From Piper betle (lineage: Eukaryota > Streptophyta > Magnoliopsida > Piperales > Piperaceae), in contig JAURVB010006561.1 of assembly GCA_033002965.1 (NCBI GenBank), positions 1 through 64,000 on the forward strand: a stretch of 64,000 bases of DNA, given 5' to 3'. This document shows positions 12,804-60,905 of this stretch, one piece after another. The notes under the pieces were generated by a model, which was given only the letters and a program-made list of their open reading frames with translations, made no database searches and was not told the DNA's origin. A program made the position numbers and the translations under genes. Positions within the stretch are counted from its first letter, which is position 1; each line of letters starts with the position of its first letter.

Positions 12804-12927
12804 TTTTGGGTCCGCCTGGGAGTGACGCCGATGGAGATGCCGTGCATCTCCACCATCGATTCCAGGGATGATCTACGGTGGAGACGCATGGCGTCTTCAT
12901 CGGCATCGCTCCCGGGCGGACCCAAAA
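12804..12927. repeat. Hairpin with 51-base arms
   Basis: Arm 12804-12854 is the inverted copy of 12877-12927, with a 22-base loop. The arms differ at seven positions and every difference is a transition. Most differences still allow G-U pairs if transcribed. GC content is high compared with the AT-rich surroundings. It could be a short foldback transposon or a young small-RNA precursor; the sequence alone does not distinguish these. Confidence 0.7.
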
Positions 12928-20320: not shown

Positions 20321-21811
20321 ATGAGCAGAATCGATACTCTCCTTATTAACCTTCTCCAAGGCCGCAACGGCATGCACAAGCTCCGCCGTATCCATGCACA
20401 CGTGCTCGTCCATGGCTTCCACCACGAGCCTGCCATTTCCGAGAAGCTCCTCAACTTCTGCGCCGTCTCGATTGCCGGCGTCCTCGCCCACGTCGGCATC
20501 GTCTTGGGTCAAATCCGCCACCGGCGAACTTAAGCTTGGAACTTCATCATCAGAGGCCATGCTTTGCGCGATGGCCATCATCTTCTCGACGCCGTCTTTT
20601 TCTTCTACAACCGGATGTTGAGGGTGGAGTTTGCCGTCCCGACACTCACTCCTTCTCGTTTCTCTTGAAGACGTGCGAGAGAGGCAAGGTTGACGGCAAG
20701 TGCAGGGAGGCGCATGGCGCGGTTGTGAAAATTGCGTGCTTTGCTGATATGGCCGTGCGCACCAGCCTTGTGCGGGCGTACGCCGGTAATGGCTGCTTGG
20801 AGTGTGCACGAAAGGTGTTCAATGGAATGGTTGAGAGGGACTTAATTGCTTGGAACGCGATGGTCTCCAGCGACGCGCAAGCGGGGCTACATGCCCAGGC
20901 GATGGAGGTTTATCGGATGATGGGAAGGTGTGGTGTCCATGCCGATGGGTTCAGTGTGGTGAGCTTGCTGTCTTCTTGTGCACAAACGTGTGATTTGAGC
21001 TTGGGGGTTGAGTTGCACAGCTTTGCGGTGGATGGTGGTTTGTTGCAGACTGTGCTTGTGGGGAATGCGCTTCTAAACATGTATGCTAAGTGTGGTGAGC
21101 TCAACAAGGAGCGACAGGTTTTTGATAGGATGGAAAAGAGAGATATTTTTACGTGGAATTCGATGATCTCTGGAATGGGCATCCATGGCCGTGGGGAGGA
21201 TACTATATTGGTTTTTAAGCAGATGTTGGCGCCGCCTGAGTTCTTCTACATTTGTTGGCCTGCTAAGTGGATGCAGTCATCAAAGTTTGGTTGAGCAAGG
21301 CCTGCAGTATTTTCAGATGATGCAGTCGGAGTTTGGCATCCAACCCAATGTTAAGCATTGCGGTTGCATGGTGGATCTGCTTGGCCGTGCTGGTAGAGTT
21401 GTCGATGCACTTGATTTTGTGAAAAGCTCTGAGTTAAAGGATGGTCCTATCCTGTGGAGAACACTGCTGAGTGCCTCCCGGGTTCATAAAAATGTGCTTG
21501 TGGGGGAAGTTGCTATGGAGTGCTTGTTTCACCTCGAAGCTGCAAATGCCGGGGATTGTATCCTTCTTTCTTGCGTATATGAAAAAGCAGGAAACATGCA
21601 AGGCATGGCTAGGATGAGAAAGATGATCAAGAACAGTAACGTTAAGACTACTCCTGGTTGGAGTCAGATCGAAGTTGATAGAATTCTTCATAAGTTTATT
21701 GTAGATGATGAATCACGTTGTGACTCTGATGATATTTACTCGATGGCGAAAGAGATTATACATCGGGCATCAGTGACAGGTTATGAAAGGGAGATATCTT
21801 CCATGTTATGA
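20321..21811 (+). pseudogene. PPR protein relic (PLS class, E/E+ tail)
   Basis: Pentatricopeptide repeat protein, normally an organellar RNA-binding or editing factor. The N-terminal frame starts MSRIDTLLINLLQGRNGMHK and hits an in-frame TAA at about 20531, just before AWNFIIRGHALRDG continues in the same frame. A shift near 20620 moves into GGVCRPDTHSFSFLLKTCER, followed by good repeats such as ARKVFNGMVERDLIAWNAMV and RQVFDRMEKRDIFTWNSMIS. Another shift near 21235 leads to FVGLLSGCSHQSLVEQGLQY, then MVDLLGRAGRV and the E/E+ tail TTPGWSQIEVDRILHKFIVD. There is no intron, as usual for PPR genes. At least one stop and two shifts make it non-coding as given. No DYW domain. GC content is high in coding parts. 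Confidence 0.85.
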
Positions 21812-31205: not shown

Positions 31206-31611
31206 AAAAATGTAAATAAAATATGGAAAATACTTATAAAACACTGATGTACTGGGAGATCTTGGTAACTAACTAAATAAATAAATAGAAATAAATAAAA
31301 TAATTAATTTTGAATAAAACTCGTGTACTGGGAGAGGTCTTAGTTTGACATTTTAACTTTGGAGGTAACTTGATGCAAAGTTCAAACACAGTAATATAGT
31401 ATCAAGCAATTGTTTTACTTTTTTTTTTTACAGAAAAACGAGTTCAAGTTCTCTTAGAAAACTGCTTTAGTTACGCTCAACATCGACGTACGTACATCTA
31501 TAAATTTTCCCGAGCCGCTTCTTTGTGCACATCCTTACAACCATTTGCTCTCTCCCCCTTTTTTTCTTTCCTACAACCTTCTTTCCGATTTGATTTCCCC
31601 GACGGAAATTT

Positions 31612-31726
31612 TTGATTTGGGGCCGTGAAGACATTCGGGTTGATGTCCATCAAAGTTGGAATATCGAATGTCAAAGAGATTCCCGAGGGGAAGCATCAAA
31701 TCCGAATCAAGCCAGGGAACAAGTAT
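31612..31726 (+). pseudogene. CUL1: Cullin-1 retropseudogene, N-terminal fragment
   Basis: The frame reading FGLMSIKVGISNVKEIPEGK aligns with the CUL1 N-terminal pattern GW..MQ.GI.KLK.ILEG. It runs up to PGNKY and is then cut by the insertion at 31727-35063. The next cullin residues (YSALHK, then AYNLSTQNQPHNYRQQLYDR) follow directly after that insertion. The rest of the relic is at 35064-35769 and 36786-38046. Normal CUL1 genes have many introns; none is left here, so it arose by retrotransposition. Confidence 0.65.
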
Positions 31727-31730
31727 GCAG

Positions 31731-33185
31731 ACTCAAGGACCCAAAATTTTCCGATCCTAACCAGTCCGCGCGGCGTATTCTCGACCCGAGAACACCAGCC
31801 TAACACCAAGAATGCAGCTTTGAAGAGACTACGGAAGCCTGCACGCCAACACCAACCTGTGTTCGGCCAACCTCAACACCCCGAGGTTGCTGCCTTCAAC
31901 CCTTCGCTCGATCACAGAGTGTCTGCACCGCACCAAACACCGACACAACACTTCTGGCTACCGACACGCCTTGTCGATAGGCTGTTCCAGAAGTCAAACA
32001 GCACCACACGCAGCACTGCCCGATCGCCCAATCTGCAACACGCGTATTGGGTTCGTGCCGTCTGCCCTTGCTCGTCTCAGCACCAGTTCCCACATCTAGC
32101 TGCCTTGTAAACTTTGACCGTGACCAAGGATACACAAGTTCCCTGTCTATAACGCCAGCCAACAAGCAAAACACAGATTACGGGAAAACACTTCCCTACC
32201 TTATATCATTCACTCGATCATAAGGATTTTACAAGCACTCGAACTCTCCTCTCAAGCACTTGCTCGGCTTGTGGACAGCCCCCACAGCCTCGCCCCAATG
32301 TACCCACAAATATAATGGCGCACAAGAATTACTCCCCGAGTAACTCTATCCCGATTGCCAACACAAGCAACCTAACAACGTGTACCTGGTTTCCAGCAAG
32401 CCAATGGAATTCCAGCGCTCACCACGAACACCGGCTGTAGCAACTCCACGCTTCTTTCTCACCAGCCGCACCACGTTGTTTTCTCACAAAGGAAGACGAC
32501 TGGGATCTCAGGAACTCTCCTCCTCACCGGACTTGATTCCACTCTTGATCCACTCCCACGTCTGTCCTTTGGATCTGGCCTGATTACTCCTGAATCACAC
32601 GACCTTCTTTTTCCAGCATAAACCCATGCATATAAGTACGCCCTTCTGATTTCAGATAACACCGGATCCTTGCATCCTCATCCACAATGATCTGCAATAT
32701 CCACCGTATCCAGCAACCCTAGCAGCACACCGCGTCCAGGTTCTTCCCAACGGCCTTGTGGTTATCTTCAGAAGTCTGTTGCAGCCTCCATGTCTGGAGA
32801 TGGATCATATCTTCCACCAAGATACACCCCCAGCATAAAGCTTTATCACAAACCCCCTTGGCTGCACCGCTGGTCATCCCTTCTCGCCCACCGGCTCGAC
32901 CCCAGCAACGTCCAGACATGGTCCAACCTCCCTCAGCAATCCACTGAACATATGGTGGCAAAGGTCCACCAACAACGCCCAACAACAGACCTGCCGCTCG
33001 TGCATGCCCATGCACCGCCACGCGCACCAGCACCCGCTCGCGCGCGCGCCTACGAGCACACTCGCGCGCGGCCGCTCGCGCGATCGTCCGCCGCGCGCCA
33101 TCGCGCGTTTGCTTGCGCCCGAGCGCTCGCGCGCCCGTGCACCCGCGCAGCGGCGTGCTCTGTCGCCACTCGCGCACACACCAGC
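31731..33185 (+). repeat. Left arm of the giant inverted repeat
   Basis: Matches the complement of 33597-35053 along its whole length, from TCAAGGACCCAAAATTTT to the inner CGCCACTCGCGC. Differences are scattered substitutions and small indels. The inner third is extreme in CG dinucleotides (GCGCGC runs at 33035-33140). Confidence 0.85.
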
Positions 33186-33596
33186 CCTAGGTTCCCATCG
33201 TCCATGAGGGGGTAGCGGTAGCTATCCGAGTGGTGGAAACAACATGCCGAGGCTAACCCGTGTTGAGTTGCAGGTTACAAACCGTAGGTGCACGAGGCTG
33301 CCGAGTAACCGAGCATGGCGATGGAGCATGGCGTCGGGTTACAGCAGTGGTGTCGGCACATGGGTCGGTATTTGGTGTATCGAGCATGTGGCCGAGTCCG
33401 GTCGAGAAACCTCAAGTGGCTGCTGATCGGTGTTTGGGTCGGCAGATTGAGGTTGTGGTTGCAACCGTGGACCGAGCAGCCTACGAGCCGAGTACGCAGC
33501 ACAGAATGCCAAGCAGCCACTAGTACCGAGCAAAATAGCGGAACTGTGTTGGAAAGCAGTACCGAGCACTGTAGCGGGCGAGCGCGAGGTCGTGCG
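33186..33596. other. Spacer (loop) of the giant inverted repeat
   Basis: Unpaired with itself. Has repeats of the type ACCGAGCA and GGTCGG but no recognisable gene. Confidence 0.6.
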
Positions 33597-35053
33597 CGCT
33601 GGTGTGCGCGCGAGTGGCGACAGGCGCGCTGCTGCGCAGGGGCGTGCGGGCGCACGCTGCGTGGTTGCCGTGGGCGCGCGATGGCGCGCATGGTGCGATC
33701 GCGCGAGCGGGTGCGCGCGGGTGTGCGCGCAGGCGTGCGCGCGAGCGGGTGCTGGTGCGCACGGCAGTGCATGGGCATGCACGAGCGGCAGGTCTGGTGC
33801 TGGGTGTTGTTGGTGGACCTTTGCCACCATATGTTCGGTGGATTGCTGAGGGAGGTTGGACCATGTCTGGACGTTGCTGGGGTCGAGCGGCGGGCGAGAC
33901 GGGATGACCAGCGGTGCAGCCAAGGGGTTTGTGATAAAGCTTCATGCTGGGGGTGTATCTTGGTGGAAGATATGATCCATATCCAGACGTGGAGGCTGCA
34001 ACAGACTTCTGAAGATAACCACAAGGCCGTTGGGAAGAACCTGGACGTGGTGTGCTGCTAGGTTGCTGGATACGGTGGATATTGCAGATCATTGTGGATG
34101 AGGATGCAAGGATCCGGTGTTATCTGAAATCAGAAGGGCGTACTTATATGCATGGGGTTATGCTGGAAAAAGAAGGTCGTGTGATTCAGGAGTAATCAGG
34201 CCAGATCCAAAGGAGAGACGTGGGAGTGGATCAAGAGTGGAATCGAGTCCGGTGAGGAGGAGAGTTCCTGAGATTCCAGTCGTCTTCCTTTGTGAGGAAA
34301 GCAGCGGGGTGCGGCTGGTGAGAAAGAAGCGTGGAGTTGCTGCAGCCGGTGTTCGTGGTGAGCGCTGGAACTTCATCGGCTTGCTGGAAACCAGGTACAC
34401 GTTGTTAGGTTGCTTGTGTTGGCAATCGGGATAGAGTTACTCGGGGAGTAATTCTTGTGCGCCATTGTATTTGTGGGTACATTGGGGCGAGGCTGTGGGG
34501 GCTGTCCACAAGCCGAGCAGGTGCTTGAGAGGAGAGTTCGAGTGCTTGTAAAATCCTTATGATCGAGTGAATGATATAAGGTTGGGAAGTGTTTTCCCGT
34601 AATCTGTGTTTTGCTTGTTGGCTGGCGTTATAGACAGGGAACTTCTGTATCCTAGGTCACGGTCGAAGTTTACAAGGCAGCCAGTTGTGTGGAACTGGTG
34701 CTGAGACGAGCAAGGGCAGACGGCACGAACCCAATACGCGTGTTGCTGGTTGGGCGATCGGGCAGTGCAGCGTGTGGTGCTGTTTGACTTCTGGAACAGC
34801 CTATCGGCAAGGCGTGTCGGTAGCCAGAAATACTGTGTCGGTGTTTGGTGCGGTGCTAGATACACGGTGATCGAGCGAAGGGTTGAAGGCAGCAACCTCG
34901 GGGTGTTGAGGTTGGCCGAACACAGTTTGGTGTTGGCGTGCAGGCTTCCGTAGTCTCTTCAAAGCTACATTGTTGGTGTTAGGCTGGTGTTCTCTGGTTG
35001 AGAATACGCCACACGGACTGGTTTTAGGGCGAAAATTTGGGTCCTTGAATCAG
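33597..35053 (-). repeat. Right arm of the giant inverted repeat
   Basis: Inverted copy of 31731-33185, about equal in length. For example 34376-34396, with CTTGCTGGAAACCAGG, mirrors 32380-32401 with CCTGGTTTCCAGCAAG. Confidence 0.85.
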
Positions 35054-35063
35054 GCCCGTGACA

Positions 35064-35769
35064 CCAGGGAACAAGTATTCAGCTCTACACAAAAGCCTAC
35101 AATCTGAGCACACAAAAGCCTACAATCTGAGCACACAAAATCAACCCCACAATTACCGGCAGCAGTTGTATGACAGGTACGACGGACTCTTGCGCCACTA
35201 CACATTCAAGACGGTACTGCCTTCCCTGAGAAAGGTGCACGACGAGGTCATGTTGGCCGAACTTGTCAGGAGGTGGCAAAATCACACTCTTCACCGATGT
35301 CTGTATCGTTACTTCCATTACCTGGATCGTTACGTAGTTCCTAACAATCAACTTGAACCGATTCATGAAGTTGCATGGTCTCGAATCGTGGATTCGATCG
35401 TTCTCCAGTTAAGAACGTGCTGGGCATGTTTGTCGAGGCTGGGGTACGAGGGGGCGATTGCACTACGTGCATGGTTTTGAAGATGGGATGCTTCAAGATT
35501 CCCGGGACTCCTACTCTTGAGGCTTCGGTTTGGATTGTGGAGGACTCCTGCCCAGATTACATGCTGAAGGCCGAGGAGTGTTTAGACGAGAGAAGGAACA
35601 GGTTGCCCATTATTTGCATTCGAGCGGCGAGACAAAGCTATTGGAGGAAGTAAGGAGCAGGTGGCTCTCTGCACATGAAAATTGGCTAATTGAGAAGGAG
35701 CGCTCGGGATGTCTTGCCTTGCTAAAGAACGACAAGGTTGATGACCTTGCAAGAATGAACCGCCTGTAG
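35064..35769 (+). pseudogene. CUL1: Cullin-1 retropseudogene, middle fragment
   Basis: Reads YNLSTQNQPHNYRQQLYDRY, then FKTVLPSLRKVHDEVMLAEL, then LYRYFHYLDRYVVPNNQLEP, in line with CUL1 ([20 protein letters not shown] and so on). After shifts come VKNVLGMFVEAG, then VEDSCPDYMLKAEECL, then REKEQVAHYLHSSGETKLLE and LLKNDKVDDLARM. No introns. A 23-base unit is duplicated in tandem at 35091-35136, and several frameshifts are present. The fragment stops at NRL, where a CACTA-like insertion begins. Confidence 0.85.
35091..35136. repeat. 23-base tandem duplication in the cullin relic
   Basis: Two perfect copies, 35091-35113 and 35114-35136, each containing CTACAATCTGAGCACAC. It adds residues after TIYNMC-equivalent positions and shifts the frame. 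Confidence 0.85.
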
Positions 35770-43878: not shown

Positions 43879-46800
43879 TGTAAAACCCGTGACTCGAGTC
43901 AGGGTTTTACGTTACCGAACCAGTCGGTTCGACCGTTGGTTCGAGTCGAGTCAGTTTCATGAACCGCGTGCTGAGTCGAGACCAGCCGTGAGTTATGAGC
44001 GATGAGAGTCAGGTGTACCTGAATATATGATGATAACGTCGAGAAGATGGTGAGATACGAGTTATCTGAATATATGAAAGTATGCAGTATTTTTCTTTTT
44101 ATATGTTTGATCGTAGAAATAGTTTTAGGCCGAATAACGCGTTAGGACGCGTTGGATTATATTCGGGTGGGTTATTAGTTATAGAGCATGTCATTTGGAT
44201 GTTGTTGTGTTTGTTTTATTTTATGGAATTTTTCCATATTTTTCTAGATTTTTTTGGAATTTATTACGAACTAGATATTATTTTGACTCGAGTAGGAATC
44301 GAGTCAATACTTATTTACGAAACTGCCATTGAGGGTATTTTTCTCCCTCCCGACCCTTCTTCACCCAAACCCTCGCCGCCCCTCGTGCTCGCTGCCGCCG
44401 CCGCCGCCGACGTCGTACAGCCGCCGATCAACGCCGCCCCGCCCCGCCGTGCCGTCGCCGTGCCGCCACGACCCACCCCGGCCACCGTCTCGCCGCCACG
44501 ACGCCGGAATCGCCCCACGAAACCACCTCGGCCGCCGCCACTTCGAGCCGGATTCCGCCGCCGTCCGGGCCGCGCCGCCGCCGCTGTGGCCCCGACGACC
44601 ACCCCTCGCCGTCGCCGACGTTTCCCCCACCATCCCGACCGCCGTCGAGGCCGGCCGGAGCCCCGATCGGAGCACGCCGCCGCCGCCGCCCATTTTCGAC
44701 GCCGCCGCCGACGGCCATCGCCGCCCCGGCTGCTCTGTTTGACACCGCCATTGGACCAAGCTCGTCGAGCTGGTGCCGATAGACCCCCTGATTGCCCCGT
44801 CCCGAATCATCGCCGGAAAACCGTCGGAATCCGCCGGAAAACCGCCGACACTCGCCGGAAAACCGCCGGAACCGCCGAAAAATTGGATTCTTGGGAAATT
44901 CGCCGGATCATCCGCCGAACGCACCCGGTCCAATCTGATCGGACTTCGGACGTCGCTAGGTGCCGAATTCGAGTTTCGAGCCACGAAACGGAAACCCTAA
45001 CCGTCGCCGATTTTCGACGACGCGAGGTATAATTTATTTTAACTTAATTATTTGGAAGTATTGCTTATTAGAATTGCATGCTAGGATTGGTGAATTGTGT
45101 GTTATAATAATATATATAAATGTAGATTTGATTAAGGATAAAATATGAAATTTGTTTGATTGAGTGGTGTTAAAAATGGAAGCTAAGAAACTAATTAGGG
45201 TAACTAGGTAATGATCATGATCTAATGCAAACTAGCCTAAGTAGACTTGCTAGAATTGATATAGGTTGATGTGTGTTGATTAATGCGTGATTGTGTTGAT
45301 TGTGTGTGCATGCTATAGGATGTGTGATTCATCATGCGGGCGTTAGTTTTTAGCTTGATTGTGTAGGTACGGTGTAGGAGCTCGCCGCCTAGGCGCGTGG
45401 ACCCGTTTGGAGCTTCTACCAGGTCCGTTTAGGACTCGTTCTGTAAAACCCACGATTCGAGTTAGGGTTTTATATTCAGAACCGGTCGGGTCGACCGTTA
45501 TTTTTCGAGTTGAGTCAGTTTCAGGACACGTGTACCGAGCCGACGCCGGTCTCGTGTATGAGCTATGAGGGTCATGCGTACCCAAATATATGATGATAAC
45601 GTCATGAATACAGCAGAACAGAATGAGTTATCAGATATATGAGAGTATGCCAGTCATTTTTTTATTACTTTTATATATAGTGGATCGTAGAATTAATATT
45701 AGGTCGTTTACCGCGTTAGGACGCGTTCGGGCAGTTTGGGTGGGTTGATAGTTCTAGAGCATGTCATTATAATTTTTTTGGTGTTGTTTGATTTAACGGG
45801 ATTTTTCCCGATTTTTATGAAATTTTTAGGATTTAATACGAGTTAGTTATTATACTTGACTCGAGCCGGAGACGAGTCAAGTATTATTTACGAAATTGCC
45901 ACCCAACCCTTCTTCTCCACCCCCGACCTTTCTCCCCCACGCCCAAACCGTCACCATCGCGCCGCCCCTGTTCGCGCGCCACCGCCGCCACGGCCGACGC
46001 CGCCTGGCCGCCGTTCGACGCCGCCCAGCCCAGCCACGGCGTTGCCATGCTGCCCCGACCAGGTCCGGCCCCAATCGGGCCGCCGTGACGCCGGATTTGC
46101 CGTGCATAGCGCCGCGGCTAACTTTGGGCGCGTCGTTGATTTCGCCGCCGGCGACCGTCGCCGCCACGATCAGGTGGTCGCGTCAGCACCAGCGACCACC
46201 CAGTGACCCTCCCCGACCGGAACGGAGGCCAACGCCGCCCATCCCGGCCGGATCTAGCCACCGATTGCGCCGCGGCTCTGTTTTGCCGTTTTCCGGCGAG
46301 CCGCCGCCTCCATTGGTCACGCTGATGTCGTAGATGAGTCGGGCTCGCCGAGCCGGTTCCAATGGTACCCTATATGACCCCTATCCAGCTAGTAGACGCC
46401 GCCGGCGATTGTCGTCGGAAAACCACCGGAAGTCGCCGGAAAACCGCCGGAAGCTGCCGGAAAACCGCCGGAAAATCGGAATTTCTGGAATTCGCCGGAA
46501 TTCACCGGATCTTCCGCGGGGCTCACCCAGTGGAGCCCGATCGAGCTTCGGACGCCGATGAGCGCCGAATTTGAGCTCCGAGACGCGCGACGGAACCCTA
46601 GCCGTCGCCGATTGCCGACGACGTGAGGTATAATTACCTCCGATTGATTTATTTAAAATTGATGATAATTGTTAGCATAGCATGCTAGGGTTAATTAATT
46701 ATCATGATTAATGTCTTGACCATGAATAAAGTAAAGATGTGCATGATGACATTATTAGTGAATGAAGTGATCTAATGAGATGAATTGTGTATGAACATGT

Positions 46801-49694
46801 TAATCTAGTACGATGCAACTTAGAAGAACAGAATAAGATATGGTATGAGTAGTTGAGTTAGGATTATTTATTCTTATAATTATTTGATGGTTATTTTGAT
46901 GATGATTCTGTGTTTAATTGTGTTGAGTTTGATGCATCATTTAGTTAGCGGGCGTTAGTATTTAGTTTTGATGTGTAGGTACGGAATAGGAGCTCGCCGC
47001 CTAGGCGCGATGACACGCTTGGAGCTTCTACCAGGTCCGTTTAGGACTCGTCTTGTTTTACGCTTTTCTATTGTATGTTTATGTTATTATCTGCAGGACG
47101 GGTTAAGTGGCGTTTTATCGGATCCCACTTAACTCGGGCCATTTAATCGAATATTTTCCGGATTAATAACCCCTCGAGGATGAGATCCCTCGAGGATGAT
47201 TTCGAAAACAAGATCCACCACAAGTTGCCTTCGGGCCTATTATATGAATCCCTTCCCAGGCCTATATATATAGTTTTATCGAGTTTCAGTGAGACGAGAG
47301 ATGGAGAAACCGACTGCACGTACCATGCAGAGGATGCCGTGACAGTCAAAGCGGGCTCTGGATTAGTGCCAGCGGACTGTTCCATTCCCGAGGGATCCTG
47401 ACAACTCCGCGTTTGAGTTCCTCACACCCGGAGAACGTGGAGGTTTACGGGTACTGTTTAGTACAGCGCATGTCCGGACTTGTGGTTCAAAGGGTACTAA
47501 AGGCGACTGCCTGAGAGTACTCGGCCTTCGTGCTCAAGGCCAGGAGAAATATGGAGGTAAGGAGAGGGCTTAGGATAAAGTTTCACGAGAAGTACTGAAA
47601 AAGAAGTGCTGAGAGTAGCACAGTACCAGCAGCAGAGCAGTAAGTTCGGGATGCTACCGGGTCTGCAGCCCAGTGGCTCCTCAGTAGTGCCCTTCAGAGT
47701 GTTCTTGAGGAAGTATATGGTTTTCTTTCATATGAGAGTTTGCTCTCATAGCCAGTTTGCTATAGTTATTTTCTTTTCGGACCAGTAACGCTTGTTACTG
47801 ACGTTTTTCTTATATATATGTAGGTGATGAGCACGAGATGGATGTGCCGGCCGGGACGGAGGAGCAATAAGGTCTTCTGCACACACATATTGGGTGATTG
47901 AATGTTTCATGTTTTGTTTATGATGTTGTTTAATAAACATGCTATGATTAAATGTTTGAGGCATGATAATGATACGAAATGAGATGATACAGAGTAGCGC
48001 AGCAAAAGTATGATGGGTTGAAACCCAAGCTTCAGAATGAGTGTATAGTAGATTAGATTCTGTGTGAATGAAATTATTTGATAGTTGGTTACATATATTT
48101 TTATATGTATATTTGACAGGGTGGCCCCTAATTGCATTTTTAGGGGAAATTCTGTCCGTTATATTTCAAAACTTTTATTAATTTTTATCGGGATTGTTTG
48201 GTGTGTACTCTGACTTGCATGTCATTCATGTAGTACCATGTTAGGTTTGTGTATTCATCCATGCATTACGAGTTGTATCTTCATCTTAAGACGCCGAGAT
48301 TGGATCCACACGAGTTAGGTTCGGGTTAGCCGACCTAACCGGGGCCTGTAACATGCCGGTTCGGTTCACGAGTGTGAACCGGATTTGGGGTGTTACACGT
48401 TCTCTGATTTACGCTACTCTCTTGTGTATTTGATTTATTATGTCGCAGGACGAGTTAAGTGGCATTTTATCGAATCCCACTTAACTCGGGCCATTTAACC
48501 AACGATTTTCCGGATTAATAACCCTCGAGGATGAGATCCCTCGAGTTTGTTTTCGAACTTCAGATCCAGGTCACGTTGCCTTCGGGCCTATTGTATAAAT
48601 CCCAACCCAGACCTATATATATGTATAGTTTTCGTGTTTTTGTGAGAGACTGAATGAGGGAAATCTGACTACCGTGCTACGCGAGCGGGCACGTGTGTGT
48701 CGACAGTGGGCTCTGGAATGGTGTGCGGGCCGTTTCATTCCCGAGGGATCCTGACAACTCCACCTTTGAGTTCCTCAAACCCGGAGAAGTGTGGAGGTTC
48801 ATGGGTACTGCATTGCAGCGCATGTCTAGACTTGTGGTTTCAAAGGGTACTGAAGGCGACTGCCTAAGAGTACTCGGCCTTCGTGCTCAAGGCCAGGAGT
48901 AATATGGAAGGTGCAGAGGGCGGAAAGGAATGAGATTTGACGCGAGAAGCAATAGAGAAATGGCCGAGGCATGAGAATGTGAAAGATAGGGGGACGCTGT
49001 CGACCCGAGGGCGACGACTCCCGTATGTGCCCTGATGAGAGTTCTTGAGGAAGTATATGGTTATCTTTCTACAGGAGAGTTTGCTCTCCTGTGCCAGATT
49101 GATATTAGTTATTTTCCGGGCCGGTAACACTCGTTACTGACGGTTTTTCTATATATATGTAGGTGAGGAATGCGAGCGATGAAAGCTGTCGGGACTGCGG
49201 AGGAGCAGCACGGAACCGCACACACATGTACCTGCCGCGTGTAATGTATGTATAATGATGGTGTGTTATTGTTATGTAAATGATAATTTTGATGTGTTTG
49301 CTTGAATAAATTACTTGTCATGAAACGAACTAATAAATATGAATGAGTAGGGAGCCTTGGAGTTCAGACTCGGCTCGGGTAAAAACGAATGAGATAATGA
49401 TTTAATGTCATGGTAGATTGTTATGTGTTATCGTATTTTTATAAAATAGTATATATTTTCTTTTGGTTTCGCATTTGTTGTTTTGTCTTATTTTGCTTGT
49501 ACATCATAGCATGTATGTAGGACCGCGTTAGAACCCAATTGTTCCCATTCATGCATTTCACATTTGCATCTTCATCTTGAAATGCCGAGAGTAGATCCTG
49601 GTCGGCTTAACCGAATCTAGTAGATTAGCGAACGGTTCGGTCGCTGGTGACATTTCCGGGTCGGTTCACGGGTGAGCCAAAATGGGGTGTTACA
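43879..49694 (+). mobile_element. Outer solo LTR, interrupted by a second solo LTR
   Basis: Starts TGTAAAACCC and ends GGGTGTTACA, flanked by GTGGG on both sides. Without the nested copy it is 43879-45441 plus 48403-49694, about 2855 bases, close to the 2956 of the nested copy, and both share all landmarks: GACGCGTTGG, GACTCGAG..GAGTCAA, a CCG-rich block, GAGCTCGCCGCCTAGGCGCG, CCTCGAGGATGAGATCCCTC and GAGACGCCGAG-like ends. There is no gag or pol, no second LTR and no primer-binding site, so it is a solo LTR left by recombination. Long LTRs of this type are found in plant Ty3/Gypsy elements, which is an inference here. Long frames in the CCG-rich block (for example the one ending at 45032) are not supported as genes. 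Confidence 0.9.
45442..48397 (+). mobile_element. Inner solo LTR nested in the outer one
   Basis: Starts TGTAAAACCC at 45442 and ends TGTTACA at 48397. CGTTC is present at 45437-45441 and again at 48398-48402. It is 2956 bases long and is similar to the outer copy throughout, in the same orientation. The insertion is just after CCGTTTAGGACT, in the 3' half of the outer LTR. No coding region. 47671-48397 is very similar to 1-763. Confidence 0.92.
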
Positions 49695-49925
49695 GTGGGT
49701 GCCAGCTTTGAGGAGGGGTCGGGCCTTGGAGGGGGTGTGGTTGAAGACAGTGAGGGAGTAGCCACTGGCTTGAGGTGGGCGCACATGGACCGGCCCAGGA
49801 CGCAAGTGCCGATCCATCCCATGCGTGTGTGGCTTGGCAATGTGGGCTTGGCGGTGGCGGTGGATGACAACATGGTGTGGTGGATTGGGCGGCAGCAATG
49901 GTGAGGCGGCGGCGATGAGGCATGA
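49695..49925 (-). pseudogene. 3-hydroxyisobutyrate dehydrogenase-like relic, first part
   Basis: The minus strand reads MGWIGTCVLGRSMCAHLK in one frame and ASGYSLTVFNHTPSKARPLL then KAGTH in the next. This is the Rossmann start of the family (GWIGTGVMG.SM..HL..AGY...VFNRT..KA..L...GA), with the glycine-rich loop partly kept as GWIGTCVLG. Joining KAGTH to LTPAYDVVFS across the LTR restores the family order. At least one frameshift between LK and ASGY. It is transcribed divergently from the LTR. Confidence 0.8.
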
Positions 49926-50029
49926 AGAGAAGAGGGTTAAGGAGTTAGGGATTTTGACTCCTTTTGATGCCCAAACTTTGATGGGTTTACCGTTCTGTGA
50001 AGGCCCCCTCGCCTGGGCACTGATAATAT

Positions 50030-50230
50030 TAAGGTTTATAAAAGAAGTTTTAACTAAAAATATTTGTATTTTTTTTAAATTTTCGGGATGTATTTCCTAT
50101 TAACTCGTATCATGAGCAAGTCGAATTTTTATTACGAAACTACCTCCACACCTAAATCCATTTCTTCCCGCCCCTACCCCCCCCCCTTTCCCTTCTCCTT
50201 TGTTTCCCCCACCAGTGACACATTGCTGAG
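50030..50230 (+). repeat. Central piece of another old LTR copy
   Basis: AACTCGTATCATGAGCAAGT followed by ATTACGAAACTACCTCC and a C-rich run corresponds to the part of the solo LTRs reading GACTCGAG..GAGTCAA, TTTACGAAACTGCC and the start of the CCG-rich block. The rest of that LTR is not seen here. Confidence 0.5.
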
Positions 50231-50702
50231 TGCATTGCACAGTCCACCCAGTCCACCCCATCCTCTGCCACCACCTCTACCGTTGGCCTCGCCTCGATTG
50301 ATGCCACTCGATGCCAGAAACCCCCATCTGTAGTTTGCACCCCCGAAGGCAGCCCCTTTCCCAAGTACAGCACGAAGATCTTTGCCCTTGATTCCTTCAC
50401 ATTGTAATCTTTCGAAGACGATCTATGGTGTCCAGCTCTGTCAACCTCCTTTGATGCTCCGGATTGTGAATCGTCTCCTTCACCACCACAATTGAAGCCG
50501 ATGGGCTCTCCTCTTCAATAGCTTCCTCTTCCTCCTCCACTTCTTCCTATAACCCAATCCCCTTGCCACCACATCAAACTCCGGCAAGTCCAACTCCTTT
50601 GGCAGTTGCTGTGGATGCGGCATTGGTGGCAGCACCGCCAGCTCATTGAGGTCGAGCTCGTCAATGGCACGGAGGTCTCTGCCGCTAGAAGGCGGTGGCA
50701 CC
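50231..50702. other. GC-rich sequence of unknown origin
   Basis: Neither strand has an intact gene. The composition and the adjoining ribosomal protein relic suggest a captured or decayed gene. On the minus strand, ELDLPEFDVVARGLGYRKKW was seen but not recognised. Confidence 0.35.
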
Positions 50703-50841
50703 TCAAATCGACTTCTAAAACATGGTGCGGGCACCGCCAGCCGTTGAGCTTCTTGGGCTCCCAACAGCGCGGGTCGGCGATGAGGAGGGTGCGGTCGTAC
50801 CTGATGACGATGTTTGTGATCTCCAACTTGCACTCCACCAC
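50703..50841 (-). pseudogene. RPS16: Ribosomal protein S16 (uS9) C-terminal relic
   Basis: The minus strand reads VECKLEITNIVIRYDRTLLI then ADPRCWEPKK, matching the S16 tail (KEIK.I..RYDRTLL.ADPR.CEPKKFGG). After a shift it continues GARTMF, a stop codon in place of the Gln of ARFQKSYR, then KSI and TGA, so the natural terminus is visible. S16 is a 40S subunit protein at the decoding site. Only about 45 residues remain. Confidence 0.75.
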
Positions 50842-51007
50842 CGTCTCCGGCAGCCGGCTGAGTCAAACGAGCGCCGCCGCCCTGTGAACAAATGCCTAGA
50901 GGTGGTGGAGATAAAAGAATTAAATTTTCAAGCCGTTGGATAGAATCCGATGGCTGGAATCAAATTGCAGCACAGGAAACTTGCCCTCATATATATATAT
51001 ATATTAT

Positions 51008-51302
51008 AGGATAAGGACTTAAGAACTTACGAACCTAATTTTAATGTGTTTGATATAAATTAATGGTGATGACGATTCTTAAAGCAAAAGCATGATCACC
51101 ATTAATTTATATATAATAGTTTAGCCACGGGTTCTTAAGTTTTTAAGTTTTCAACCTATGATATCATAGGTTGAAAACTTAAAAACTTAAGCATTGTGGC
51201 TAAACTATTATATTTAAATTATGGTGATCATGCTTTTGCTTTAAGAATCGTCATCACCATTAATTTATATCAAACACATTAAAGTTCATTGAGTCCTTAT
51301 CC

Positions 51303-51303
<1 letters not shown>
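51008..51303. mobile_element. Long palindromic MITE
   Basis: Left end AGGATAAGGACT and right end AGTCCTTATCCT; the two arms of about 145 bases mirror each other around 51162/51163 (CCTATGAT|ATCATAGG). Arms are nearly identical (for example GGTGATCATGCTTTTGCTTT against its complement). The left arm has about 14 additional bases near the end. It lies between two TA-repeat tracts. No coding capacity. The family is not clear. Confidence 0.85.
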
Positions 51304-51344
<41 letters not shown>

Positions 51345-51352
51345 GTGAAAAT

Positions 51353-52646
51353 TGTAACGCAAGTACACGTGCCGAATTAAGTAATAAAAGTGATAAGAAA
51401 TTATCGTCTCACGAGAAATTAGTAGTAGAAATTCTCAATTACCAAAACTAATTTAATTAATTATACTTAAATGAAAGCAAATTCAAAGAGTGATCTTATT
51501 ATGAATTAAAATTAAATTAATTTAACATGCAATATTTAAATTAGATATTAACTTTAAGACGACCTAGGATTTTCAATTTCACATAGTGCTCTATATGATT
51601 AAAGTTATAACTTCTACGCATGAATTGCACATTTGGATTATTAACCACGAGAATTAATTATTCATGATAATCTCTCGATTCACCATAAATTTATCACTCA
51701 CAGCCAATTTCTATATCTCTATGAAATTGTGTATGCAAAATGATAACAGTTACCCAAGGTATATGAGTATATCTCTATCTCACATGTGAATCATCCAAAA
51801 CAAATGAACAAAGACTATTTTATTCAATGAGAAATTTAATCTTTCTATCTCTAGACAAGATCAAATCTATAGATCTAACAATATATGACCAGTCTAATAA
51901 TAACATTAAGAACATAATAAAATAGATGATTCAACATCACAATCACAAAGATAAAAATTAATAACCTTTATTAATCCATGCACTGGGTGTCATTGAAAAT
52001 CTTAGAAAAGAATTTACTCCATAAAATATTCGATTAAACTCAAGAAATTCATATCTGATATGAAAGACATCATTTAATTGCAAAGAAAACTAAATCAACA
52101 TAAGAAAAACTTTTTTGAGAAAACATCTTCTTCTTTTGATCTAGCTTCTTCGTTGTTCCTTCTCTTCTTTCGTGTCGATCGTTTAGCCGTCCAGTGTTGT
52201 TTTTTTCTTCCTCTTTTCTCTTTAAAACCCTAATCAAGTTTATAAATGATCCACCCAATAGTATAAGTGGGGACCACCATAAAATCCCGAAATACTGAAA
52301 ATTGATTTTTTTGCTGCTAGTGATCGAGTGCTCTGGTCTCGGTTATAATTACGCTCGAGCGCTCTAAATCTCAATGCTCGAGCGTTAGGGCTTTGACCAG
52401 AATACCAAAGTACGCTCTTTTGACCCGAGTTCGTTCTAAATTCGTTCTCGATCATCTTCTAACTTTTATGCCCTTCCAAAATAATATTAATTAACACTTT
52501 TTATACCAAAATTACAATGATTTATTGTTTTATTAATAATACCTAATAAACTCCTAAACTAATAAAATTAAAATAAAAATCACTCGAAACATGACAAAAG
52601 CTCAATATAAAATGAAAAGAATAATAACTCTTTTAAAGAGTTATCA
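51353..52646 (-). mobile_element. Possible solo LTR of another family
   Basis: On the minus strand it begins TGATAACTC and ends GCGTTACA, with a promoter-like and leader-like segment (GGGATTTTATGGTGGTCCCC, then AAACCCTAAT). AT-rich, about 1.3 kb, no coding. Flanking bases do not show a convincing 5 bp duplication, so the boundaries are tentative. Confidence 0.4.
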
Positions 52647-52674
52647 ATATCCCTTCCTTGTTTGTATTCCAGGC

Positions 52675-52696
52675 GGTTAATAATTGGTACTTGTTG
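52675..52696. repeat. 22-base direct repeat, right copy
   Basis: Identical to 43671-43692; see there. Confidence 0.8.
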
Positions 52697-54265
52697 TGCT
52701 GCATATATATTTTCATGTATGAATGTCTAATAGATTTACTCACTTGTCTTACCATATATCATATTTTGTAAATTGATGCTTAATGGGTTGTGATTACATT
52801 CATCCACTATATCATACATGTGTCATATAAACTATATGGGCATTAATGAGTAGCCTTGTTTGTGTAGGTACGGAGTATGAGTTCTCCGTCTTGGCGAGAG
52901 ATCACAGTTGAAGTTTATATCAGGTCCGTTAGGACTTGTCTTTTTGATTGCCGCTCTATTCCATTGATGTTTTGATTTACAAATCGTAGGACATGTTAAG
53001 TTATTTTATCAGATCTCACTAAATACGTGTCATTTAAATGTAACATTCTTTTCGAATTAATAACCCTCGACGATGAGATCCCTCGAACTGTTTTAGAAAA
53101 CTCAAACCCATTGCAAGTTTCCTTCGGGCTTATTTAAATATTCCCTTTTCCAATCATATAAATATAATTTTTGTCAAATTTTTTTATAAGTTGAGAAATG
53201 GAGAAACTCACACCTACTATGAGAAGGAGCATTTGTAAGTCACACTGGACTCTGGATTGGTGAGAGGGTCGTTCCATTCTCAAGGGATCGTGATAACTCC
53301 ACGTTTTGAACTTTTTTACACCTGGAGAGGTGTAGAGTAAACGAGTACTGTTATGTACAACGCAAGTTTAAACCTCTGTTATCAAGGAGTACTGATGGTG
53401 ACTGCATGAAAGTACACGATCTTTGTACTTTGGGCTAGGAGAAATATGAAGGTTTAGAGAGGACTTCAGATAATGGTTTTTCTTGAAAGTGAGACTTTAA
53501 AATAATGTCGAGAGTGACACAATACCAGTCAATTCGGGATATAATCTGGTCTGTAGCTCAATGGCTCCTTTGTAGTTCCCGTAGAGTGTTCAGTTAAGTT
53601 ATATGATTGATTTCTTTTATAAGAGAGTCAACTCTCATTTACTAGTTTGATATTTAGTTATTTCTAGACTAGTGATAACTGTTGCTAATATTTTTTTATT
53701 ATTTATATAGGTAAGGAACATGAGTGAGATATGTTGGCCCTCGGGGGGAGCAGAGATTGTCATTTGCACACACTGGTGCAACGTGTATTATTTGTGTGAT
53801 TTTGTCATGACATTATTTTGTGATGTGTTTTGTATTATGTCTAAAATGTCTGATATATTCTGAGATGGGTTTGGCAATTTGGTGGATGTGTTCAATAGAT
53901 GGGTCGAGACCCAGCCTATGACTCTTATTTTGCTGTTTATAACTTTATTGTGCTCTGAAAAATTGTAATAATATATTTTATTAAATAGGTTGACTTCTTA
54001 GTCCACTTTTAAAAGAAATTTTGTCCGTTTTATTTTAAATTTTTATAATTTTATCATAATTTAATTGATTTAAAGTGTGATTAATTATCATGATATACAT
54101 GTACCATCTTGTTAGGGTGTACATTTCATGCATGCATTAGTTGTGCATTGTAATGTTTTTTCGTCTTGAGACCCTTAGAGGGTATAAGTCTCTTTTGCTT
54201 AGGTTTGGTTCAACTAACTTAATTGAAGTTAGAGTTGGTTTTGATGACTATGTTTGTCACATGAG
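52697..54265 (+). repeat. 3' part of an old, diverged LTR
   Basis: Follows the solo LTR order: GTGTAGGTACGGAGTATGAG, then TCCGTCTTGGCG, CAGGTCCGTTAGGACTTGTC, TAATAACCCTCGACGATGAG, CCTTCGGGC, GAGAGTCAACTCTC, and TTTTGTCCGTTTTATTTTAA. Divergence is much greater than between the two solo LTRs. The end near GTTTGTCACATGAG is decayed. Confidence 0.7.
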
Positions 54266-59829: not shown

Positions 59830-60905
59830 CGGCTTTAAAGGCTTCGTAAATATATTTGCAACTTGATCTTTAGTCTTGCAATATTCCAACTTAATTTCTT
59901 CAATTCTTATCAAATCTTTAATAAAATGAAATTTTATCTCAATGTATTCACTTCCTCCTATGCATAATTGGATTCTTGGTCAAAGTAATAGCTAAACTAT
60001 TATCACACAAACTTGTAGTAGGCCCATGTTAATGATATTTCATCTCCTCAAACAATCTTTGCAACCAAATGGTTTGACTTGCTCAAGATGTAGCTGTGAT
60101 ATATTTAGCTTCAGCAGTAGAAAGTACAATTGTTTCTTGCATATTCGAAGATCATATAAACACAGATTTTCCAAAAGTACTCTTTCTATCATCAACATAT
60201 CTAAAATTGTAGTAGGCCCATGTTAATGATATTTCATCTCCTCAAACAATCTTTGCAACCAAATGGTTTGACTTGCACAAGATGTAACTGTAATATATTC
60301 AGCTTCAGTAGTAGAAAATACAATCGTTTCTTGCTTAGTCGAAGATCATATAAACACAGATTTTCCAAAAGTACTCTTTCTATCATCAACATATCCAATC
60401 CGATCACTATCCAAGTAGCCAACCAAAGTAACATCATTAGAAAATGAATAAAAAATACCATGAGAGAATGTACCTCGAATGTGTTTTAAAATTCTTATCT
60501 CAGCTTGAAGATGATCTTGAGTAAGTGTCTCCATATATCAGCCAAGTAAACTCACTCCATACAAAATATCCAGCCTTTTTGTAAGTGTCAAATAGTAAAG
60601 ACTGTCAATTAAACTTTTATTAAAATAAGTAGAATCTGCCATGTTTTTCGAATTCCTCTTCCATAACTTCAAACCTATCACAATCAAACTAGGGATTGGT
60701 TTGGAGTTAAACATTTTCAATTTCTCTAAAATATTTTGTGCATATTTTCTTTGATAAAAAAATCTCATCTTCACGTTATTTCACTTCAATACCAAGTTAA
60801 TATGACATAAAACTATCTTTTGATTATTTTTAGTAAAAATTAAATCATCCACATAAAAAGAAATAAACAGCATATCATCATGAACAATTTTTTTGGTGTA
60901 CTTTT
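59830..60905 (-). pseudogene. Copia reverse transcriptase/RNase H relic
   Basis: On the minus strand the catalytic YVDDLIFT motif of Copia reverse transcriptase is at about 60840, followed by RKYAQNILEKLKMF, SLYYLTLTKRLDILYG and KHIRGTFSH, VGYLDSDRIGYVDDRKS (RNase H start) and TEAEY further on. Stops, shifts and a 194-base tandem duplication break it. No LTRs were found near it. It is a decayed fragment with no mobility. Confidence 0.8.
60015..60402. repeat. 194-base tandem duplication in the Copia relic
   Basis: 60015-60208 and 60209-60402 are two copies, each starting GTAGTAGGCCCATG. They differ at about a dozen positions. 194 is not a multiple of three, so the duplication shifts the frame of the RNase H region. 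Confidence 0.85.

Follow-up and report, generated by a model that had tools for sequence, protein, structure and literature searches.

One-ended integration is known mainly from experiments with HIV and ASLV. When integrase has joined only one end of the DNA in these systems, the host joins the other, often in truncated form, and this second end may also join more viral DNA in either orientation; the host sequence is duplicated over more than 5 bp, usually over hundreds to thousands of base pairs (PMC5041404). The cases described there involve HIV with integrase inhibitors or integrase mutants and ASLV with a mutated end (PMC5041404). A literature search that covered few subscription papers listed two on inverted LTRs of retrotransposons, one on Dictyostelium and one on locust.

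The locus described here lies within a 64-kb stretch of Piper betle DNA (“the window,” meaning the whole stretch analyzed), in which there are no Ns. A preliminary description, made from the sequence alone, had reported an inverted repeat with 1.45-kb arms around a loop of about 410 bases and had proposed a self-comparison of the region; run by BLASTN on the window, this comparison shows the inverted arms to be real, with 31730-33185 matching 35051-33598 on the minus strand at 93.3% identity over 1,462 columns and a loop of 412 bp (33186-33597) between them. A repeat search of the window recovered the same arms as ungapped pieces, and a global alignment that included the outer ends had 1,359 of 1,471 columns identical. 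The same 15 bases reported on both sides were also found by repeat search and exact scan: CCAGGGAACAAGTAT occurs on the plus strand of the window at 31712 (31712-31726) and at 35064 (35064-35078), and nowhere else. This direct repeat extends to 19 bp if one mismatch is allowed; the T at 31726 is ambiguous, so that a 14-bp repeat around an element starting with TG is also possible. The window contains other repeats as well: a palindrome of about 334 bp between TA microsatellites (50989-51322) that resembles a small fold-back element, another palindrome, GC-rich and about 124 bp long (12804-12927), a tandem duplication with a 194-bp step and 94% identity (60009-60398), and several diverged direct repeats of 0.3-0.95 kb, 69-78% alike, at 43879-54138 and 1-1062, some of those at 43879-54138 being common to the window start.

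The preliminary description had been unable to place the element in a known class and had proposed a genome search for other copies of an arm, with comparison of their ends. That search yielded both family copies and their ends, and the arms can now be assigned: they are LTRs of a multi-copy retrotransposon of the same genome. A left-arm query (31700-33200) had at least 54 matches in the 527-Mb genome (11,211 contigs), where the best 40 of 946 candidates were scored and all counts are lower bounds. Direct LTR pairs 4.6-4.8 kb apart on four contigs (C895, C9755, C9356, and C6665) represent complete elements, with LTRs of about 1.9 kb and an internal region of 2,717-2,721 bp in the four copies. 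All four carry GAGGTATCAGAGC after one LTR, presumably including most of the sequence at which initiator methionine tRNA would prime, and a purine tract, GGTGGGGGAGGA, before the other. Since this primer-like site and purine tract adjoin the LTRs, the sense strand of the LTR is fixed: it starts with TGTTACAG, or in many copies with TGTCACAG, and its last bases are CCCGTGACA.

The internal frame of one complete copy (L011, 884 codons) encodes a Retrotrans_gag domain (PF03732, E 1.4e-17) and aspartyl-protease domains, together with a Ty3_capsid match of 26.6 bits, under the cut-off of 29.1. In L011, the one copy scanned, there was no reverse-transcriptase or integrase domain; because of this, and because the internal region is short in all four complete copies, we call the family non-autonomous, and it is probably Ty3-like. 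A tRNA-primer scan within the arm gave nothing above shuffles, as expected for a primer site that is not part of the LTR. A protein search with the arm frame, exact scans of viral contigs with 21 and 23 bases, and one 21-base scan of prokaryote genomes were all negative.

Of the 32 loci fetched (L010-L041), 25 could be scored for target duplications, seven without both ends as a simple pair being left out. Fourteen of the 25 have exact 5-bp duplications and six match at four of five positions; the remaining five (L019, L020, L031, L037, and L039) have the primer site or the purine tract as one flank and, since such a flank is internal sequence, each is one LTR of a longer element. In none of the 25 copies did an exact repeat next to the ends exceed 5 bp. 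The preliminary remark that 15 bp is too long for an LTR duplication therefore holds for this family, in which 5 bp is the length in 20 of 20 two-flank copies (14 exact, 6 near). These 20 sites (L010-L018, L021-L030, L036, and L040) show a symmetric target preference, approximately YATG[GTWAG]CATR, around the 5-bp duplication. Compared with a normal LTR insertion, the present locus differs on both counts, having inverted rather than direct LTR pieces and a 15-bp rather than a 5-bp repeat.

The suggestion that two LTRs might be joined head to head proved correct: both arms match the family LTRs, fused U3 to U3, so that both outer ends are U5 ends. The loop and right arm together (33186-35063) align as one block with the LTRs of 15 of the 20 loci L010-L029 (as two blocks with the other five) and are 96.0% identical to L014 over 1,890 columns. 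The 412-bp “loop” is thus present as described but is not a separate sequence; it is the inner (U3) part of a right-hand LTR on the plus strand, as its match to the family LTRs indicates, and the right arm (33598-35063, plus strand) is the remainder of that LTR up to its exact U5 end (...CCCGTGACA), as comparison with the family LTRs shows. This LTR is nearly complete, lacking about 52 bp at its U3 start. The left half (31727-33185, with the BLAST match beginning at 31730) is an inverted LTR piece whose sense strand is the minus strand; about 464 bp of its U3 and the last 8-12 bp or so of its U5 are missing. At the inner junction (33185/33186), located by the alignments and a junction query, the U3 of one LTR meets the U3 of the other with no obvious common bases by eye. 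The outer end TGTCACGG, said earlier to begin as an LTR would, is in fact the reverse strand of the 3′ (U5) end of an LTR, as the primer site and purine tract make clear.

The two arms had different parent LTRs, to judge from the variants that they carry. They differ at 46 of 1,228 core sites, and the right arm is 1.3-1.6% from L017, L014, L018, and L016, whereas the left arm is 3.5-3.9% from the same copies. Polarizing the core on nine close LTRs (picked after the arm distances had been seen) assigned 36 changes to the left arm and 7 to the right, with 3 ambiguous (p 9e-6); on all 24 LTRs, the figures were 32, 7, and 7 (p 7e-5). The outermost 48 columns have the reverse bias (1 left, 8 right, 1 ambiguous). 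The load of the left arm (37/1,216) is high yet within the family range (L020 has 33/1,228), and 15 of its 37 specific bases are present in other family copies, with 22 in none; three right-specific bases at the outer end are found, among family copies, only in L015. Because inherited family variants sit on one arm only, neither arm would have been copied from the other. A close donor of the left arm was not found among the best 40 of 389 candidates, the best other match being 96% over 191 bases. Divergence in the GC-rich LTR tract (33019-33158; 27 of 75 columns in the GC-rich block) was discarded as proof of separate origin: the tract varies strongly in length and sequence among LTR copies and differs even between both LTRs of single elements (L010, L012, and L013). 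At a substitution rate of 1.3e-8 per site per year, the insertion would date to no more than about 0.6 million years ago, provided that the right arm acquired all of its private core changes (9/1,216, a count that excludes the outermost 48 columns as well as the GC block) after inserting.

The host sequence is a cullin relic, interrupted at PGNKY, and both of these points of the preliminary description stand. A profile search matched PF00888 (cullin) over 35064-35462 (E 4.6e-9), with E 6.8e-11 for a hand-joined reading of the relic and a later piece (35620-35766) under the curated cut-off at E 0.0067. Alignment with a paralogue places the relic, on the plus strand, at 31643-31726 before the insertion (ATG to PGNKY) and, together with PF00888, at 35064-35769 after it, where there are frame changes; a repeat search found a 23-bp exact tandem duplication (35087-35132, plus strand) that is absent from the paralogue. 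A 297-base query of the joined flanks identified three genomic places, namely the two flanks here and the paralogue (C9234:27215-27449; 75% identity over query 28-285), where the corresponding site is single copy and uninterrupted; by comparison with this paralogue, there is no sign of target-sequence loss at the insertion. The label “retropseudogene,” however, is doubtful, since the paralogue has a further match to 31464-31600, a stretch that lies upstream of the relic ATG (74% over 144 columns), and the relic was probably copied as DNA along with its upstream region. A protein search with the hand-joined relic, PDB searches, a tRNA scan, and Rfam at gathering thresholds found nothing. The same window carries a SKP1-like open frame (1895-2410; Skp1_POZ, E 1.7e-9), cullin being the usual partner of SKP1, and a PPR-repeat gene (20350-21811) spread over two overlapping frames, of which the second has an E motif, so that the gene is perhaps frame-broken; the best protein match of the PPR frame is from Vanilla planifolia (52% identity over 64% of the query).

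The two outer junctions are of different character. The right end is exact at the CA of the LTR, without the GA found between the LTR and the primer site in complete elements, and the adjoining target, TCAAG[CCAGG]GAACA, falls in the top 0.66% of window positions when scored with the symmetric motif of the 20 family sites (0.46% with a 17-site motif and 0.61% against the flanks of family copies), while the best of 17 other offsets tested reaches 6%. In a leave-one-out test of the 20 family sites, 13 scored above the 99% level and 17 above the 95% level. The score rests on 20 sites from one genome and the match is imperfect, the target site ranking 12th of 915 positions in the relic. The right junction is thus what integrase would leave. 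The first 5 bp of the left target repeat (CCAGG) fit an integrase duplication and the other 10 bp do not; the left junction does not look like the work of integrase, because U5 has been trimmed there and the target duplication runs on for 10 more bases.

The locus is a chimera of two LTRs from different family members, joined U3 to U3; on balance, we lean toward the view that it resulted from an aberrant one-ended integration. In such an event, the 3′ end of the U5 of one cDNA would have been joined to the motif-like target at AAG/CCAGG by an integrase supplied by another element. The other end would have gone without integrase joining: there the host would have extended the target strand by some 15 nt, where 5 is normal, and linked it to a second cDNA at that cDNA's trimmed U5 end. 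The broken U3 ends of the two cDNAs would have been joined to each other. What marks one-ended integration is seen here, that is, an exact integrase-like end on one side and, on the other, a truncated and rearranged end with a non-standard duplication; likeness to HIV and ASLV makes one-ended integration the most likely step. Several points count against it: many joining steps are needed, the outermost 48 columns reverse the left/right bias of changes, none of the best 40 of 389 candidates closely matches the left arm as a donor, and a 15-bp duplication is short beside the HIV cases.

A somewhat unlikely course, though one that accounts for the motif and the exact right end and for the greater number of changes in the left arm, would have had two steps: insertion of an LTR element at CCAGG with a 5-bp duplication, reduced to a solo LTR, and a later break at the U3 edge, in whose repair 10 bp of flank (GAACAAGTAT) were copied, followed by an inverted older LTR from elsewhere. 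For a template switch, however, it would be a coincidence that the left arm stops no more than about 12 bp short of the LTR's U5 terminus, and the places scored contain no close donor for that arm.

We consider it unlikely that the 15-bp repeat arose at a staggered double-strand break, where overhangs some 15 nt long would have been filled in and the ends of two LTR cDNAs captured by end joining, without integrase. Fill-in at 3′-overhang breaks does give small duplications (PMC8355091), and breaks in mouse zygotes capture retrotransposon sequences (PMC4516963), but this course would leave the right end's exact CA terminus and its motif match as coincidences. Human L1 also makes 15-bp duplications (PMC4245944), so that the length of the duplication alone did not exclude a LINE-type (target-primed) insertion; this candidate was rejected since, by eye, neither end has an A-rich tail or a T-rich nick site.

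The inner junction itself bears on whether the structure exists and whether it is mobile. A 171-base query across the left-arm/loop junction was spanned at one of the 40 places scored (the best of 709 candidates), namely this locus; the other 39 match the loop side only, from query base 86 or 87. The left side of the query is mostly the variable GC tract, and no match enters its last 26 bases, which are well conserved. Among the 32 fetched LTR loci, none has LTRs on both strands. The fold-back therefore looks like a single accident rather than a new kind of mobile element, at least as judged from these copies. A junction seen once, in an assembly of 11,211 contigs, could also be an assembly error, but we hold this very improbable: a single relic supplies both outer flanks, which line up in register with the C9234 paralogue, and only inner sequence could for that reason be missing or misjoined.

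It is hardly credible that one LTR cDNA folded back and copied itself, making one arm from the other. The near-equal arm lengths and the continuation of one arm into the loop would suit such a snap-back, but the arms would have been identical at birth and should have aged equally, which the 36 versus 7 core changes and the family variants inherited on one arm do not fit, and by eye the inner ends offer no pairing able to prime copying. To a mobile fold-back family with target duplications of about 15 bp we give next to no credence, for although the overall anatomy (long inverted arms, loop, and flanking repeat) would fit it, the arms are ordinary LTRs, the junction is spanned at one scored place, and no fetched locus has LTRs on both strands. 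A fold-back DNA transposon of the MULE/FARE-like kind was rejected too, there being no repeated family with the same inverted structure in the places scored. This leaves no grounds for proposing a new class of transposon here.

A transcript through the locus would be predicted to pair over long stretches, the longest exact run between the arms being 96 bp, with 575 of 1,436 21-mers common to both. A motif scan confirmed a TATA-like motif in each arm, as described earlier, but the sense-strand motifs point away from the hairpin: ATATAA at 34574-34579 (plus strand) points outward to the right, and its counterpart in the left half at 32201-32206 (minus strand) outward to the left. An antisense TATA-like motif at 34149 points inward. 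Since the sense promoters of the LTRs point outward, away from the loop, they would not transcribe the hairpin, and read-through from a flank would be needed, as has been proposed for Mu killer (PMC3440606). The fold-back is probably inert DNA, and hairpin RNA could arise only via read-through from outside. By analogy with Mu killer, the locus might be a natural silencer, in which read-through from upstream of the relic would give a 1.4-kb LTR hairpin and siRNAs against related LTRs; we think this improbable here. More generally, inverted LTR pairs are possible seeds of small-RNA silencing.

Among known systems, IS481EU elements share with this locus target duplications of about 15 bp and TGT...ACA ends; unlike it, they are transposase-coding elements of parabasalids with inverted repeats mostly shorter than 50 bp (PMC10045372). 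That identity was rejected, the arms being LTRs and no repeated fold-back having been found. Mu killer of maize resembles the locus in being an inverted transposon duplication beside a gene or relic, where read-through is possible; its silencing was shown genetically (PMC3440606), whereas the sequence here is a non-coding LTR. Within the family itself, solo LTRs and complete elements have the same LTR, with the right end of the locus lying exactly at the LTR terminus, but they carry single or direct LTRs and 5-bp duplications. The closest likeness that we draw for its origin is to the aberrant integrations of HIV and ASLV, with one exact end, the other end truncated and followed by inverted element DNA, and a duplication longer than 5 bp; unlike those cases, this is a plant LTR element with two parent LTRs, only LTR sequence left, and a 15-bp duplication (PMC5041404). 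If our preferred reading of one-ended integration is true, inverted LTR pairs can arise without a fold-back transposon, and the locus would be a natural record, left in the germ line, of a plant retrotransposon that integrated by one end only.
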